Shown here: one piece after another, positions 73 to 19,575 of the stretch | Position numbering within the stretch: the stretch's first letter is position 1 | How the letters are laid out: each line of letters begins with the position of its first letter | IMG/VR virus record: IMGVR_UViG_3300033993_001389 | Location: 1-28,090 of that record | Length of the DNA: 28,090 nucleotides | Strand: one strand, 5' to 3' | Source of the DNA: a virus | Made by a program: the position numbers and the translations under genes | The notes under the pieces: generated by a model | The model's input: the letters and a program-made list of their open reading frames with translations, nothing else | Databases searched by the model: none | Told to the model about the DNA's origin: nothing

Positions 73-297
73 TCAGTCTCCTGTCCAGACGACGTCAGGC
101 TGCCGATTCGGTGGCGGCTCGTACTGGTGCAACCTCGCGGCCAAGGCAGCGATCTTGTCCTTGAGGCCCTGCTCGCGGAGGTACGCATCGCGTGACCTTG
201 AATCCAGCGAACGAATGAACGACGCCATGTCGGGCCTGGCCTGCCGCTCGAGGTACTCGGCGATCACGCTGGCGTCGATGTTCAGCGGCTCACGCAT
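73..297 (-). CDS. Small hypothetical protein downstream of recT
   Basis: A 74-residue soluble protein that I do not recognise. It is highly charged and looks helical, with the segment RDAYLREQGLKDKIAALAARL likely forming one long helix. No signal peptide or membrane segment is visible. The start is well supported: the ATG overlaps the recT stop by eight bases and is preceded by AGGAGGTGA six to seven bases upstream, close to a full anti-16S match. It is therefore probably translated together with the RecT homologue and may assist phage recombination or replication, but that role is inferred only from position. Confidence 0.7.
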   Translation of the reverse strand: MREPLNIDASVIAEYLERQARPDMASFIRSLDSRSRDAYLREQGLKDKIAALAARLHQYEPPPNRQPDVVWTGD

Positions 298-1126
298 TCG
301 TCACCTCCTCGGGCTCGCTCATCAGGATCTCGACGCGGCCCATCAGCAGCTTCGTCAGCTCGGCAAACTCGTCGTCGCTGATCTCGCCGCCGTCGTGGTA
401 GACGTCGAGCTTGGAACGCAGGGCCTCGCACGCCTCAATCGTCGCGGCACTGCCGATGGCCAGGCGGCCAGCGTCGGCGCGGGTACGCTGCGGCTCCTTG
501 CTGACCTTTGGCTTGAGCGGCACCACGGTTTCCGTGTCGCTGGTGAACTTCGGACGCACGACCACGGGCTCGCGGGCCGGCTCGGGCTGCGGGTAGTCTT
601 GCGCCTCCTCGGCGGTGATGAGCCCACGCAGGGCGTCTGCGAACGCATTACGCAGGGCGAACCCGCGAGCACGCAGCTGAAGCATCCGTTCCGGGTACTG
701 CGACCACGGGCCAGACTTTCCAGCCAGCCCGGCCCGCTTGGCGTCAGCCATGCTGAACCTGCTCACGGTTGGTGCCGGGTAGCCTCGGCGCTTGGCCTCG
801 CAGACAGCCGTCAGGTTGTCGCCCTGGCCCTCGACGTACTCCTTCACGTACTCGCAGACCGCGCTCGACTGCACCAACGCAAGGGCGGCATCGCCCCAGA
901 TCGTCGGCCTGCCGTTGATGACGGCGATGCTCTGGAGCGACTGCATGGGCGACAGCCCGACCTCGCTTCCGTGCTGGATCGCCAGCAGGCACGACTCGGC
1001 CTTTCCCTTGAAATCCTTCGGAGCGAACTCCGATGCCGCCACCATCTTGGCGAACCGGAAAGCGTCATCGAACGATTGCAGTGCGAGCCCCGTGGCTGCA
1101 CGCTGCGTGCTGATTTCCGTGCTCAT
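290..1126 (-). CDS. recT: RecT-family single-strand annealing protein
   Basis: A 278-residue protein resembling RecT-type annealing proteins of phages, which coat single-stranded DNA and pair it with complementary strands during phage recombination or replication. The family-like core is easy to see: FKGKAESCLLAIQHGSEVGL at residues 39-58, MQSLQ at 61-65, INGRPTIWGDA at 70-80, and WSQYPERMLQLRARGFALR at 141-159. Residues from about 175 onward are proline- and charge-rich and probably form a flexible tail, ending in an acidic helix. AAAGGA and GAGG lie just upstream of the ATG. No RecE or lambda-type exonuclease partner is visible in the window, so the nuclease partner, if any, is beyond the left edge or supplied otherwise. 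The long leader upstream is unusual and described separately. Confidence 0.88.
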   Translation of the reverse strand: MSTEISTQRAATGLALQSFDDAFRFAKMVAASEFAPKDFKGKAESCLLAIQHGSEVGLSPMQSLQSIAVINGRPTIWGDAALALVQSSAVCEYVKEYVEGQGDNLTAVCEAKRRGYPAPTVSRFSMADAKRAGLAGKSGPWSQYPERMLQLRARGFALRNAFADALRGLITAEEAQDYPQPEPAREPVVVRPKFTSDTETVVPLKPKVSKEPQRTRADAGRLAIGSAATIEACEALRSKLDVYHDGGEISDDEFAELTKLLMGRVEILMSEPEEVTNA

Positions 1127-1358: not shown

Positions 1359-1586
1359 TCAGAAAGTGATGTCCTTGACCGGCACGAACAGCCAGCCGCC
1401 GCCGACGTTGATGCACGCGGTGCGGCCAGAGTCGCTGAACCACTCGATGCGACCGCTCCACGGCTTGCCGCAGCTCGTGCCGCTGACGTAGTCGCCCTCG
1501 GCGTAGGTCCGCTTCATCGCGGACGGCAGCGTGTGCTCGGCCATTCCGGCGACGGCTGCGAGGTATTCGTTTCTGTGTGCGTCCAT
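1359..1586 (-). CDS. Small hypothetical protein with its own promoter
   Basis: A 75-residue protein that I do not recognise. The N-terminal third looks helical (HRNEYLAAVAGMAEHTL). The rest looks like a small beta-rich fold with Gly and aromatic residues (YVSGTSCGKPWSGRIEWFSD and GGGWLFVPVKDITF), perhaps an SH3-like barrel. The start is secure: AAGGAGAT lies eight bases upstream of the ATG, and a good sigma70-like promoter lies 31 bases upstream. A compact gene with its own promoter in an early region fits a host-takeover or regulatory protein, but nothing in the sequence gives a function. Confidence 0.75.
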   Translation of the reverse strand: MDAHRNEYLAAVAGMAEHTLPSAMKRTYAEGDYVSGTSCGKPWSGRIEWFSDSGRTACINVGGGWLFVPVKDITF

Positions 1587-1730: not shown

Positions 1731-1770
1731 GTAGCGGTAGATAGGCTATCGAGTAGCGGTAGTTCGTCAA
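1731..1770 (-). promoter_or_regulatory. Leftward promoter P3 with two operator-like repeats
   Basis: TTGACG (1765-1770) and TAGCCT (1743-1748) are 16 bases apart; the -10 is weak (4 of 6). CTACCGCTA occurs twice, in the spacer (1754-1762) and at about +1 (1731-1739), 23 bases apart. Between them is the palindrome GATAG-G-CTATC (about 1739-1749). The -35 overlaps the stop codon of the 47-residue gene. Two equal sites bracketing the -10, roughly two helical turns apart, is a typical repressor arrangement. Confidence 0.55.
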
Positions 1771-1910
1771 GAGAAAAACCGTGTTGCCGCAGAAAGAGCG
1801 GCGTCGATGAACTGGGCCACGGCTCGAGACAGCTCCGAGTCGGTGCCAAGCTGCTGGCCCAGGCGGACCAAGAGCAGGGAGCGGATGATGGCGTCGAGGT
1901 GGCGTTTCAT
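1767..1910 (-). CDS. 47-residue protein coupled to the methyltransferase
   Basis: A very short gene whose ATG overlaps the methyltransferase TGA as ATGA (1907-1910), the usual sign of translational coupling. The 47 residues look like one or two amphipathic helices (MKRHLDAIIRSLLLVRLGQQ, then SRAVAQFIDAALSAATRF). I do not recognise it. A longer reading of the same frame exists upstream, but that part is a shadow of the methyltransferase. Its position suggests a small partner or modulator of the methyltransferase, or an early regulator. Confidence 0.55.
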   Translation of the reverse strand: MKRHLDAIIRSLLLVRLGQQLGTDSELSRAVAQFIDAALSAATRFFS

Positions 1911-2803
1911 GTGGTCACCTGGCTTTCGGCTTGGATGATGGCTCGTCCGATGACTTCTGCGACCTGTGGCACGACGGCGTTTCCGAGGCATCGCAGTCGG
2001 TCCACCCGATTGGGAACCCCATGAGCCACTCGACAAACGCCGGATTGAGACGACCACCAGTTGTCGGTGGTGCTGGATACGTCTTCGACTTCGTCGCTCC
2101 ACGCTCCACTGCGAAGTCCAGGCAGTCCCTCGCTGGCGTATTGACTGACGGCCCCTTCCAATCCCTCGCCGCTGGTGTCGGCCATATCACACGGGCGAAG
2201 TACGGGTTGCATTTCCACTCCTCCAGAGGAGGGCAGTCGCAGTCGTGTGCATGCGTCCTGTGTATCGTGCAGATGTAGTCCTCGCAGCTGTCGCACTTGA
2301 TCCATGCGGCTGTCCTGCCTTGCCACCAACCAGACTCGCTCCCTTCGGTGCGGGGCACCGCAATCCGCAGCTGACACGATGTGCCACTCGCACTCGTACC
2401 CGACCGCCCCCAACGCCGCGATGATTGCGCCAAACGTGCGCCCTCCATCATCGTAAAGAAGTCCGGTGGGATTCTCAGCCACAAACATTGCTGGCTTGAG
2501 AGTCGCAACAACTCGTAGACATTCGCCCCACATCCATCGGCCATCGCCTGCCCCCTTGCGTTTTCCTGCAATGCTCACCGGCTGGCACGGCGGGCCAGCA
2601 CAGATGACGTCAGCAGACCAATGCAATCCGTCGTCTGGCGGGAAAGTGGCGACGTCGCCCCAGCGGGTGACGCCGGGCCAATGGCGTGCCAGCACGTCCT
2701 GTGCGTATTGGTCAATCTCGACCTGCCAGCGGCACTCCATGCCAGCACGCTCTAGGCCCAAGTCGAAGCCGCCGATCCCGGCGAACAGTGATCCAAACGT
2801 CAT
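1907..2803 (-). CDS. C5-cytosine DNA methyltransferase (Dcm-like)
   Basis: Transfers a methyl group from S-adenosylmethionine to C5 of cytosine, most likely to protect phage DNA from host restriction. Counting from the chosen start, the family motifs appear in order: motif I LFAGIGGFDLGLE near 6-18, motif IV PPCQPVS with catalytic Cys73, motif VI ENP at 110-112, motif VIII RRERV at 153-157, and motif X RLRCLGNAVVPQ near the C terminus. The start at 2803 is preferred because AAGGA lies eight bases upstream; an in-frame ATG at 2812 sits directly on that ribosome binding site. Oddly, the target-recognition region after motif VIII is poorly family-like in this frame, while the frame one base downstream reads as another known methyltransferase C terminus (see findings). 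No matching restriction enzyme gene is present, so it is an orphan methyltransferase. Confidence 0.9.
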   Translation of the reverse strand: MTFGSLFAGIGGFDLGLERAGMECRWQVEIDQYAQDVLARHWPGVTRWGDVATFPPDDGLHWSADVICAGPPCQPVSIAGKRKGAGDGRWMWGECLRVVATLKPAMFVAENPTGLLYDDGGRTFGAIIAALGAVGYECEWHIVSAADCGAPHRRERVWLVARQDSRMDQVRQLRGLHLHDTQDACTRLRLPSSGGVEMQPVLRPCDMADTSGEGLEGAVSQYASEGLPGLRSGAWSDEVEDVSSTTDNWWSSQSGVCRVAHGVPNRVDRLRCLGNAVVPQVAEVIGRAIIQAESQVTT

Positions 2804-2833
2804 CGGTCGCATCCTTGCATCGTGGCGTTGGCG

Positions 2834-3058
2834 TCAAGCAATCAAGCCGTCATCGTCGCACTGCACGCCAGCCTTGCGGGCAAGCTCAATGGCATCGCCA
2901 TCCGTGACATGGAACCTCCTGCCAGAGCCGAGCTGCCCGTAGACGTCAGAAACGATGAAGTGCTGGCCACGCTCGTACTGGATGCACCACGCCTGCTTCG
3001 GGCCAACCTTGCAGGCAAGCCGCTTAGCGTTTGTGAGGTTGTCTGTCGTCGTGGTCAT
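2834..3058 (-). CDS. Small hypothetical protein before the methyltransferase
   Basis: A 74-residue protein of unknown function. The ATG at 3058 is chosen because AGGAG stands seven bases upstream; the longer frame reading from 3178 has no such signal and runs through a hairpin. Residues WCIQYERGQHFIVSDVYGQL suggest strands, and DGDAIELARKAGVQCDDDG a helix with a short acidic tail. The gene ends 30 bases before the methyltransferase start and is probably co-transcribed with it. Confidence 0.68.
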   Translation of the reverse strand: MTTTTDNLTNAKRLACKVGPKQAWCIQYERGQHFIVSDVYGQLGSGRRFHVTDGDAIELARKAGVQCDDDGLIA

Positions 3059-3086
3059 GGTCGTGCTCCTTGGTTTGTGGTGGTAT

Positions 3087-3114
3087 TGCCAGCCGGCCCG
3101 ATTGCCGGCTGGCA
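3087..3114 (-). terminator. Strong hairpin between two small early genes
   Basis: A perfect 11-base inverted repeat (TGCCAGCCGGC with GCCGGCTGGCA) around a six-base loop lies between the 64-residue and the 74-residue genes. On the minus strand no U-run follows, so it is a poor classical terminator. It may slow or partly stop transcription, protect the mRNA end, or separate expression of the two genes. Confidence 0.5.
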
Positions 3115-3122
3115 GTGGTGGT

Positions 3123-3317
3123 TCAGCCCCAAGCGGACCATTGGCTGAATCGAGCGTCCCAAACCCACTTGCGACCATCGGCAGTCATCGCCGTCTTGCC
3201 GTCGCGTCCGAGGTTGTGGGAAGTCAGGGCCATTTCCTTGGCAGTCTTGGTTTGGCTCACGACGGAAACCATCTCGTCAGCCACCATCCGAATCCCTTTG
3301 AGAGTTGCGGCGTTCAT
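3123..3317 (-). CDS. Small hypothetical protein with its own promoter
   Basis: A 64-residue protein that I do not recognise. The first half looks helical (LKGIRMVADEMVSVVSQTKT) and the last part is Trp-rich (RKWVWDARFSQWSAWG). The ATG at 3317 is chosen over longer readings because GGAG lies upstream at normal distance and a sigma70-like promoter lies 50 bases further up, leaving a short leader. It belongs to the leftward early region and may be a regulator or host-interaction protein. Confidence 0.68.
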   Translation of the reverse strand: MNAATLKGIRMVADEMVSVVSQTKTAKEMALTSHNLGRDGKTAMTADGRKWVWDARFSQWSAWG

Positions 3318-3368
3318 CGTTTCGTCTCCGGTTGGCGTTGCGTCAGGTCTCAATCGCCTGACACGGGT

Positions 3369-3397
3369 ACTGTATGGTATCGGTAGTTGGGCGTCAA
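3369..3397 (-). promoter_or_regulatory. Leftward promoter P2 with operator-like element
   Basis: TTGACG (3392-3397) and TACAGT (3369-3374) with a 17-base spacer on the minus strand. The spacer holds CTACCGATA (3378-3386), one base different from the element in P1 and P3. The expected start near 3362 precedes the 64-residue gene. Confidence 0.65.
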
Positions 3398-3444
3398 GGG
3401 CATGAATCGGATTTTTTTGGAGTGCGTTTTCGGCCGGGAAAACG

Positions 3445-3711
3445 CTACTTCTTCCGCTTCGCCTTCTTGCGTTTGGCGGCGGGACGCTTGGCGAGGTGCT
3501 TCTTGGCGTTTGCCCTGGTCGTGAGGGAGTCTCGAGCTTCCCTGGCAGCCTCCACCGGGATGAGCCAGACACGTTCCCCGAACCGGCGGCCCCGCAGCTT
3601 GCCCTCGCGGAGCAGTATGCGGATCCAGCCGTCCGTGCAGCCCATGAAATCCACGGCCTCACTGACCGTGAGGTACTCGCCGCCGTCGATTTTTTGTGGC
3701 ATCCCGACCAT
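3445..3711 (-). CDS. Excisionase-like helix-turn-helix DNA-binding protein
   Basis: An 88-residue protein with a winged HTH of the excisionase/MerR-like type: EYLTVSEAVDFMGCTDGWIR forms the helix-turn-helix (about residues 12-31) and LREGKLRGRRFGERVWLIP the wing. The C-terminal tail is strongly basic (AKRKKAKRKK), which should add nonspecific DNA binding. It lies next to the divergent integrase and is the first gene of the leftward early region, as expected for an excision factor or early regulator. Two starts are possible: ATG 3711, which coincides with the predicted transcription start, and ATG 3702, ten bases from GGAGG. It is the best local candidate for the protein that reads the repeated CTACCG element, by inference only. 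Confidence 0.78.
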   Translation of the reverse strand: MVGMPQKIDGGEYLTVSEAVDFMGCTDGWIRILLREGKLRGRRFGERVWLIPVEAAREARDSLTTRANAKKHLAKRPAAKRKKAKRKK

Positions 3712-3717
3712 GCCTCC

Positions 3718-3745
3718 ATGCTAACTGCTAGCGGTAGCTAGTCAA
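3718..3745 (-). promoter_or_regulatory. Leftward promoter P1 with operator-like element
   Basis: TTGACT (3740-3745) and TAGCAT (3718-3723) are 16 bases apart on the minus strand, with CTACCGCTA (3728-3736) in the spacer. The start point would fall at about 3710-3712, on or next to the ATG at 3711, so the message may be leaderless. Confidence 0.55.
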
Positions 3746-3872: not shown

Positions 3873-3902
3873 TTGTATACAGGTGTTCAGGTCTGGTATT
3901 CT
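3873..3902 (+). promoter_or_regulatory. Possible integrase promoter (extended -10)
   Basis: TATTCT (3897-3902) is preceded by TG at 3894-3895, an extended -10, with a weak -35 TTGTAT (3873-3878) 18 bases upstream. It would give a leader of about 85 bases before the integrase start. Confidence 0.4.
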
Positions 3903-5331: not shown

Positions 5332-5373
5332 TCGTGCGACGACAGAAGCCATCGCGGCTGGCCTATCGCACGA
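5332..5373. terminator. Inverted repeat between convergent genes
   Basis: TCGTGCGA (5332-5339) and TCGCACGA (5366-5373) are perfectly complementary, with a smaller inner pair AGCC/GGCT in the loop. It lies between the ends of the plus-strand gene and the minus-strand protease gene and overlaps the protease stop. It could serve as a two-way transcription stop, although no clear T-run is seen. Confidence 0.4.
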
Positions 5374-6091
5374 GGCCCAGAATCCACTCCCGGTACAGGC
5401 TGACGCGGGTGTGAGCGGTCTCTTCGCCCTGGCGGCTCTTGAGCGTCGCGCCCTTCGCCGCCATCGTGAACGAGTTCACGCCAGCCAGCCGGCCGCCTGC
5501 GAATAGCGGGCCGCCGCTGTCGCCGGGGCTGATGCACAACTCGAGCACGCTCGTGCCGCACGCCGCATGGCACACGATGAGGCTGCGGTCGAACCTCTCG
5601 ATCGTCTGCGTCCCAGCTCGCAGCCTGCCGTCGTGATTCGTGTGCCCCTCGGTCAGCCGCCCGTGCAGCCCGTAGCCTGCGATGCTGACCACCTGGCCGA
5701 CGTGCTCGTCTCCGTCAGAAAGCGCCGGGAAGAAGTCTAGCTCGAGCGGCTCGTCGCAGCGGACCAGAGCGAGGTCGTGCAGCCCGTGCACGTCACGCTG
5801 CCACTCGGGATGGATCACGACCGTCGCTGCAGCCCGCGGCAGCGTCCCCGACGTCACGATGACATCGGTGCAGCCATGCACAACGTGAGCCGCAGTGATC
5901 GCCCAGTGCGGCGACAGTAGCGTGCAGGACGCAGAGGCCCGCCTGCCGTCCCCACCGACGCCGCTGACCTTGCAGGTGTACGTCGCGAATCCACGCCCAT
6001 ACTCGACATACCGGGCGTCTGGCACGGCATCGTCGGTCGTGCCGGCCACCAGCGGCGAGCACAGCACAGCGAGGATGATGGCGGCACGCAT
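5363..6091 (-). CDS. Secreted trypsin-like (S1) serine protease
   Basis: A 242-residue chymotrypsin-fold protease with a complete catalytic triad: His69 in ITAAHVV, Asp106 in HDLALV, and Ser192 in PGDSGGP. The N terminus (MRAAIILAVLCSPLVAG) is a plausible signal peptide, so the protein should leave the cytoplasm. Cys56 and Cys74 flank the His region as in the conserved S1 disulfide, and further Cys residues at 40, 112, 174, 178 and 186 suggest more disulfides. The residue expected at the base of the specificity pocket is not the Asp of trypsin, so trypsin-like cleavage should not be assumed. It is the last leftward gene of the late block. No strong ribosome binding site is visible. S1 proteases are common in bacteria but unusual in phages; it may help lysis, entry or virion processing, or be a lysogenic-conversion factor. 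Confidence 0.88.
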   Translation of the reverse strand: MRAAIILAVLCSPLVAGTTDDAVPDARYVEYGRGFATYTCKVSGVGGDGRRASASCTLLSPHWAITAAHVVHGCTDVIVTSGTLPRAAATVVIHPEWQRDVHGLHDLALVRCDEPLELDFFPALSDGDEHVGQVVSIAGYGLHGRLTEGHTNHDGRLRAGTQTIERFDRSLIVCHAACGTSVLELCISPGDSGGPLFAGGRLAGVNSFTMAAKGATLKSRQGEETAHTRVSLYREWILGLVR

Positions 6092-19194: not shown

Positions 19195-19575
19195 CTAGCG
19201 TGCGACCTTGAAGACCGCCTGGCCCTTGATGACGTCGTTTGTCGCGAATGTCACCGACGAACTGACGACCGTGGCATTCTTCGACAGGAACGTCGCCCCG
19301 GCGTGCGTGATCGACATGGCGGCGCTGGAGGCATCCGCGACAACAGACTTGCCGAGATAGTCAATCGTGATCTGGCGGCCGGTATCGGTAGCGTTGCCGG
19401 TCAGTGGGCGGTCGATCGTGCTGACAGCGTTGCCAGCAGTGAGCCCGAGGTGCGACACGTCGATGGTGTTGTCGGTCGCCGGATCGGCCAGGTTGTAAAC
19501 GATGTTCGTGACGGTGAAGGCCGTGCCGCCGAACGTGAACACTGTCCCCGCACCGTCATGAGGCGTGATCGACAT
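19195..19575 (-). CDS. Major tail (tube) protein candidate
   Basis: A 126-residue beta-rich protein: TVFTFGGTAFTVTNIVYNLA at the start, DNTIDVSHLGLTAGNAV, then GRQITIDYLG and VVSSSVTFATNDVIKGQAVF at the end. The 'TIDVSHLG' segment and the final long strand are typical of phage tail tube subunits of the lambda gpV/phi13 type. The ATG at 19575 is chosen because AGGAGA stands seven bases upstream; the longer frame is a shadow. It follows the tail terminator gene by two bases. Confidence 0.75.
   Translation of the reverse strand: MSITPHDGAGTVFTFGGTAFTVTNIVYNLADPATDNTIDVSHLGLTAGNAVSTIDRPLTGNATDTGRQITIDYLGKSVVADASSAAMSITHAGATFLSKNATVVSSSVTFATNDVIKGQAVFKVAR

Follow-up and report, generated by a model that had tools for sequence, protein, structure and literature searches.

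A shared operator-like element in the early region of a family of uncultivated phages, and an excisionase-family winged-HTH protein as its likely reader

The window analysed here, a stretch of 28,090 bp, is one complete IMG/VR record, and its early region is read leftward from a gene for a small HTH protein, through an operon of small genes with a methyltransferase as cargo, toward a RecT-like annealing protein (Table 1). The 47-aa microprotein at the end of the first operon has an amphipathic look and a weak match to Pfam cIII (E 0.024). At the very start of the transcript expected from promoter P2 lies a hairpin with the conserved loop CRANTGAGA, whose stem covaries: 89.7% of cells are paired, 41 are double-compensated and none of 500 shuffles scored as high. 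It has no match among the Rfam families. An ORF at 5363-6091 (minus strand), placed between integrase and structural genes, resembles, on the impression of its sequence, a trypsin-like protease.

Table 1. Features of the early region, with positions in the window.
Feature	Coordinates	Strand	Description
Promoter P1	3718-3745	-	Serves the HTH gene; CTACCGCTA copy of the element (3729-3737) flanked by TTGACT and TAGCAT
HTH protein	3445-3711	-	88 aa; proposed regulator; excisionase-family winged HTH (HTH_17) with basic C-terminal tail
Promoter P2	3369-3397	-	Serves the first early operon; CTACCGATA copy of the element (3378-3386) flanked by TTGACG and TACAGT
P2 5'-leader hairpin	3342-3362	-	GTCAGG-CGATTGAGA-CCTGAC
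First small gene of P2 operon	3123-3317	-	64 aa; no family
C5-cytosine DNA methyltransferase	1907-2812	-	Cargo between P2 and P3; Pfam DNA_methylase, E 1.7e-51
Conserved microprotein	1767-1910	-	47 aa; 89 loci; ends at P3, stop codon overlapping the P3 TTGAC
P3	1743-1770	-	Weak promoter-like site, TTGACG-16-TAGCCT; operator O3a, CTACCGCTA, at 1754-1762
O3b	1732-1740	-	Repeats the CTACCGCTA of O3a in the same orientation, 22 bp away
Promoter P4	1617-1644	-	Promoter of the next operon; without CTACCG element; RWAC-N4-GTWY box at 1620-1631
Small conserved gene	1359-1586	-	75 aa; downstream of P3/P4
RecT-like ssDNA annealing protein	290-1126	-	Downstream operon

The sequence-only reading had proposed that the word CTACCG(C/A)TA is shared by three leftward sigma70-like promoters, P1, P2 and P3, and the word itself is confirmed at all three. 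CTACCGMTA has five matches in the window, all on the minus strand, against 0.04 expected, and none of 100 shuffles reached five. Four of the copies lie at P1, P2 and P3, with two at P3. The fifth (19383-19391, minus) was excluded as a regulatory site since it falls inside a coding frame; a wide scan for TTGAC-gap-CTACCGCTA was likewise left unused, the matches listed being judged mostly chance on base counts. The promoters themselves fared unevenly: a scan of the window for the sigma70 consensus picked P1, P2 and P4 independently (three found, 0.7 expected), whereas P3 escaped it because its -10 hexamer is weak. The spacer measures 16 bp in P1 and 17 bp in P2, where the element fills it. The supposedly near-identical placement of the element holds for P1 and P3, where it starts 2 nt past the -35 hexamer, but not for P2, where it starts 5 nt past. 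At P3, the second copy proposed earlier forms an exact direct repeat with the first, but the palindrome ATAGGCTAT between them is only partly conserved, appearing as ATAGCCTA or ATAGCCCA in relatives. P4 lacks the element, as had been noted, and carries another palindromic box instead.

The HTH protein falls just below the curated cut-offs of its nearest profiles: the Pfam HTH_17 match has an E-value of 2.6e-5 and 24.8 bits against a cut-off of 27, and TIGR01764 scores 27.8 against 28.8, while the excisionase profile phrog_1840 matches with an E-value of 1.7e-4. An AF2 model takes up a winged-HTH fold with pLDDT of 81-87 over residues 11-60, and predicts a recognition helix at residues 27-36, including Arg35. 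The nearest PDB folds are Pukovnik Xis (4j2n) and BldC (6ama), with a probability of 1.0 although a Foldseek E-value of only about 0.05, and RacA and RdfS are also among the nearest. Sequence and modelled fold together thus place the protein near Pukovnik Xis, BldC and RdfS. A search of the phage record collection gave no relatives. Of MAG contigs, only two short ones carry the gene (Planctomycetota bin36 and a 'Proteobacteria' MAG), and among 392 genomes in the phylum of genome G001 it occurs in G001 alone. In uncultivated phages, on the other hand, more than 115 relatives were found, in a family of more than 100 members; the protein search gave 66 loci and a profile search then gave 80, of which 50 were new.

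These relatives allow the element to be followed beyond a single genome. A P2 of the form TTGACGCCYAACTACCGATA...TACAGT could be placed in 109 loci; it follows closely on the HTH gene, +303 to +385 from the start of that gene. The P3 pair, TTGACGAACTACCGCTA...ATAGCCTATCTACCGCTA, was found in 67 loci at about +566 to +2400; here the 22-bp spacing was itself the search criterion, and position and flanks were not. In many relatives the site at P1 is an inverted repeat, CTACCG-N5-CGGTAG, flanked by TTGAC and TAGTAT. The core of the element varies between loci: at P2 it is CTACCG or ATACCG in 53 loci, STGACG in 43, CTAACG in nine, CTTCCG in three and CTAGCG in one, and the same variant stands at P2 and P3 in 61 of 63 loci. 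Own-class cores lie at P2/P3 in 102 of 130 cases in CTACCG-class loci and 69 of 82 in CTGACG-class loci, and in neither class does a core of the opposite main class occur at P2/P3. A count over 17 larger records gave 54 copies of CTACCGMTA, almost all of them at P1-P3, and 21 of the pattern reversed. Since both the word and the own-class cores are concentrated in this way, the phage uses the element in a single early region, as an operator serving several promoters of one phage and rare elsewhere. P1 breaks this regularity: its sites are degenerate and in some loci disagree with the specificity class. The L214 group, for one, has Gly35 in the HTH protein and CTGACG at P2/P3, yet CTACCG at P1.

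The natural variants of the element point to its reader. Among unique HTH proteins, Arg35 occurs with C at the fourth operator base of P2 in 35 of 35 cases, and Gly35 with A or G in 34 of 34, giving an NMI of 1.00; the next-best HTH column, residue 27, reaches 0.84. For operator base 3 the best column is residue 32 (NMI 0.76), and residues 27, 32 and 35 all lie inside the predicted recognition helix. The best control columns from other proteins of the same loci were 0.41 for the integrase, 0.35 for RecT, and 0.49 and 0.28 for two small proteins. A column of a LexA-like protein with an NMI of 0.79 was not taken as signal, as it came from 21 sequences with many-letter (high-entropy) columns. At P3 the same rule returns with 37 Arg-C and 30 Gly-A cases and no exceptions. 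A scan that used operator DNA only retrieved 84 IMG/VR contigs (35 + 49), many of them already in the earlier set: 33 have Arg with CTACCG, 47 have Gly and one has Cys with STGACG (base 4 being A), two have the HTH gene cut before the helix, and one ends at the operator. Hence 83 of the 84 hold the HTH gene or its cut end, sometimes more than 1 kb upstream, the exception being the contig cut off at the operator. Eight of these loci have the HTH gene 0.9-2.1 kb from P2 and another gene in between; in several, that intervening gene looks from its sequence like a DNA methyltransferase.

As the HTH gene and P2 are usually adjacent, part of the covariation on gene trees reflects exchange of a linked block. 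Three observations argue that there is more to it than linkage. First, P3 tracks residue 35 even though variable cargo genes separate it from the HTH gene. Second, on the integrase tree all eight supported independent pairs go in the same direction (p 0.0078). Third, the scan by operator DNA leads back to the same pairing. Counts of changes in P3 class against residue 35 also agree, with 6/6 on the RecT tree and 6/6 and 7/7 on those of two small flanking proteins, trees on which few branches are individually supported; a tree of the HTH protein with the helix left out is so short that it supports one independent pair at most. That the word recurs by chance or common descent alone and binds nothing is hardly credible: the loci are indeed related, but across differing flanks and genes the core variants at P2 and P3 change together with one another and with residue 35.

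A second candidate reader is a stand-alone LexA DNA-binding-domain protein or a host regulator. LexA-type proteins are repressors, and a LexA DNA-binding domain is encoded in 27 of 34 larger records. We nevertheless consider this very improbable. Operator class tracks HTH residue 35 in every set examined, and much the same LexA-like helix can accompany one operator class in L239 and another in L053. The RWAC-N4-GTWY box at P4 and the integrase promoter is a better candidate for a LexA-type site, and a host factor would leave the operator variation linked to the HTH residue unexplained. Covariation and co-occurrence thus strongly indicate the HTH protein as the cognate, phage-encoded reader of the operator. 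The earlier proposal of a shared operator under the nearby HTH protein is supported by the 83 of 84 contigs and by the pairing of residue 35 with base 4, and the identity of the site, its conservation and its pairing with the protein can be read with good assurance from the sequences.

We therefore take the element as the candidate binding site of the HTH protein, which most likely represses two early operons. In the proposed circuit, the small winged-HTH protein would bind the operator core CTxxCGMTA (CTACCGMTA here), with its recognition helix reading the variable bases and Arg35 pairing with C at position 4 (G on the other strand). At P2, a good sigma70 promoter agreeing with the consensus at about nine of 12 positions, the site fills the 17-bp spacer between -35 and -10, so that bound protein should block polymerase. 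At the P3 pair it would sit over the -10 and just past it. Two operons would be shut in this way: the small genes with the methyltransferase cargo and the microprotein, and then the region toward RecT and the replication genes. It is the geometry of the sites that suggests repression of P2 and P3. At its own promoter P1, weaker and less constrained sites may give mild feedback, but self-regulation is the weak part of the earlier reading, given that the P1 sites are degenerate and off-class in the group mentioned above; such sites would fit a repressor that spares itself, or a P1 not bound by the HTH protein.

The position of the sites within the spacer, together with a MerR-like fold, could instead speak for activation from the spacer in the manner of MerR. 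MerR activation works on promoter spacers of 19-20 bp. Spacers of that length are absent at P1 and P2, where those of 16-17 bp are already optimal, and P2 has the good sigma70 match given above; the difference in spacer length makes activation less likely, and we regard it as improbable.

P3 is either a weak promoter or a roadblock. It had been read as a promoter, which agrees with the presence of a rightly placed TTGAC in 35 of 52 distinct P3 regions and with a best sigma70 match of 8/12 in half of the regions, above that of random positions. In the remaining 17 of 52, however, the operator pair is kept although TTGAC is gone, so P3 may act as a paired roadblock or distal operator and not as a promoter, stopping read-through from the P2 operon into the recombination and replication operon, as do the stoperators of mycobacteriophages. 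The -10 is just TAGCCT or TAGCCC, and the sites point with transcription and come after the stop codon of the upstream gene. On balance this stands as a serious possibility that falls somewhat short of being probable.

The family of the HTH protein invites a further reading, in which it binds these sites chiefly for excision, as a recombination directionality factor, or in a Cro-like lytic role, with repression secondary. It is excisionase-like by sequence and fold, a divergent integrase gene adjoins its own, and both Apl of phage 186 (PMC7498355) and RdfS (PMC11963761) excise and also repress promoters. The exact sites, however, cluster at P2/P3, 0.3-2.4 kb away from the integrase side, and a search for a CTACCG cluster between integrase and P1 found none. 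Directionality factors would be expected to use direct repeats about one helix turn apart, whereas the site is single at P2 and the two at P3 are 22 bp apart. No integrated prophage was found. We accordingly rate a chiefly excisive or lytic role as possible but doubtful, and repression as the better account.

The HTH protein may further have a role in lysogeny or immunity. None of 34 larger records, which may be fragments, encodes a Peptidase_S24 domain of the kind found in CI/LexA S24-type repressors, and HTH_3 occurs in just three of them, which leaves the HTH protein as the best candidate for the main repressor, subject to the same caveat on fragments. On this basis one could tentatively propose that an excisionase-fold protein serves as main repressor in a large group of temperate phages showing no CI-type repressor, that the code of residue 35 and base 4 divides this group into immunity classes, and that the integrase and replication promoters are under the RWAC-N4-GTWY box, whose reader may be the stand-alone LexA DNA-binding domain.

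The RWAC-N4-GTWY box is a palindrome of LexA-type appearance and recurs at 3877-3888 in the integrase promoter region, which like P4 lacks CTACCG. In relatives, 58 of 139 matches with spacing 4 lie between integrase and HTH genes and 21 downstream of P3, an enrichment at those places above that of any other spacing tried; the box near the integrase may alternatively be part of attP. The LexA-like protein is about 80 aa long and lacks the S24 peptidase half (e.g. L007:10589-10834); it is absent from the window, where the contig ends first. A separate conserved intergenic motif, TTG-C(8 to 22) followed by a -10-like box (TTTACACT, TATTTT or TTACGCT), stands upstream of RecT or a small gene in many relatives (L007, L026, L060, L064, L068, L216, L228 and L229) and in the window at 1311-1328, as poly-G on the plus strand. 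Its run length differs among near-identical relatives, which may also be homopolymer sequencing error. As the homopolymer seems to form the promoter spacer, its length could switch the promoter, a form of phase variation.

An operator has thus been tied to its likely reader in uncultivated phages from sequence alone, with a specific rule for which natural protein prefers which natural site and with the HTH protein as a likely switch for early genes. Should that protein prove to be the main repressor, the lineage would be expected to divide into immunity groups along this rule, and it would follow that a fold of the excisionase type, mostly known for reading DNA loosely, is able to evolve a strict specificity. 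A literature search found no paper on this circuit, which is no proof of absence, and several known systems share parts of it.

Apl of coliphage 186 and Cox of P2 are recombination directionality factors that double as regulators of early promoters: as here, a small excisionase-type DNA-binding protein accompanies a phage integrase, has sites at early promoters and represses, the last being our proposal for the present case (PMC7498355). Apl binds direct repeats arrayed every 10-11 bp at attP and pR-pL; the present system has one conserved P2 site and a P3 pair 22 bp apart, and its sites show a clear consensus of 9 bp and fall into natural specificity classes. RdfS of ICEMlSymR7A, which covers the -35/-10 in the promoter of its own gene, and BldC of Streptomyces, which binds direct repeats, have the HTH_17 winged-HTH fold in common with the HTH protein, but are described as reading DNA partly indirectly and without a strict consensus (PMC11963761), in contrast to the strict consensus and residue-base rule seen here. 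XisF4 of Pf prophages, according to the sections of the source drawn on here, is likewise an excisionase and also controls the lysis-lysogeny decision, but belongs to a filamentous prophage, and those sections describe no operator code (PMC7379572). The stoperators of Cluster A mycobacteriophages (L5, Bxb1) are, like the present sites, mostly aligned with transcription and vary in specificity between related phages (PMC6550527); their repressor, however, is unrelated, larger and served by many sites genome-wide, against some three to four exact sites in one early region here. Set beside these precedents, the present system differs in its strict 9-bp consensus, its few sites and a rule linking residue to base.
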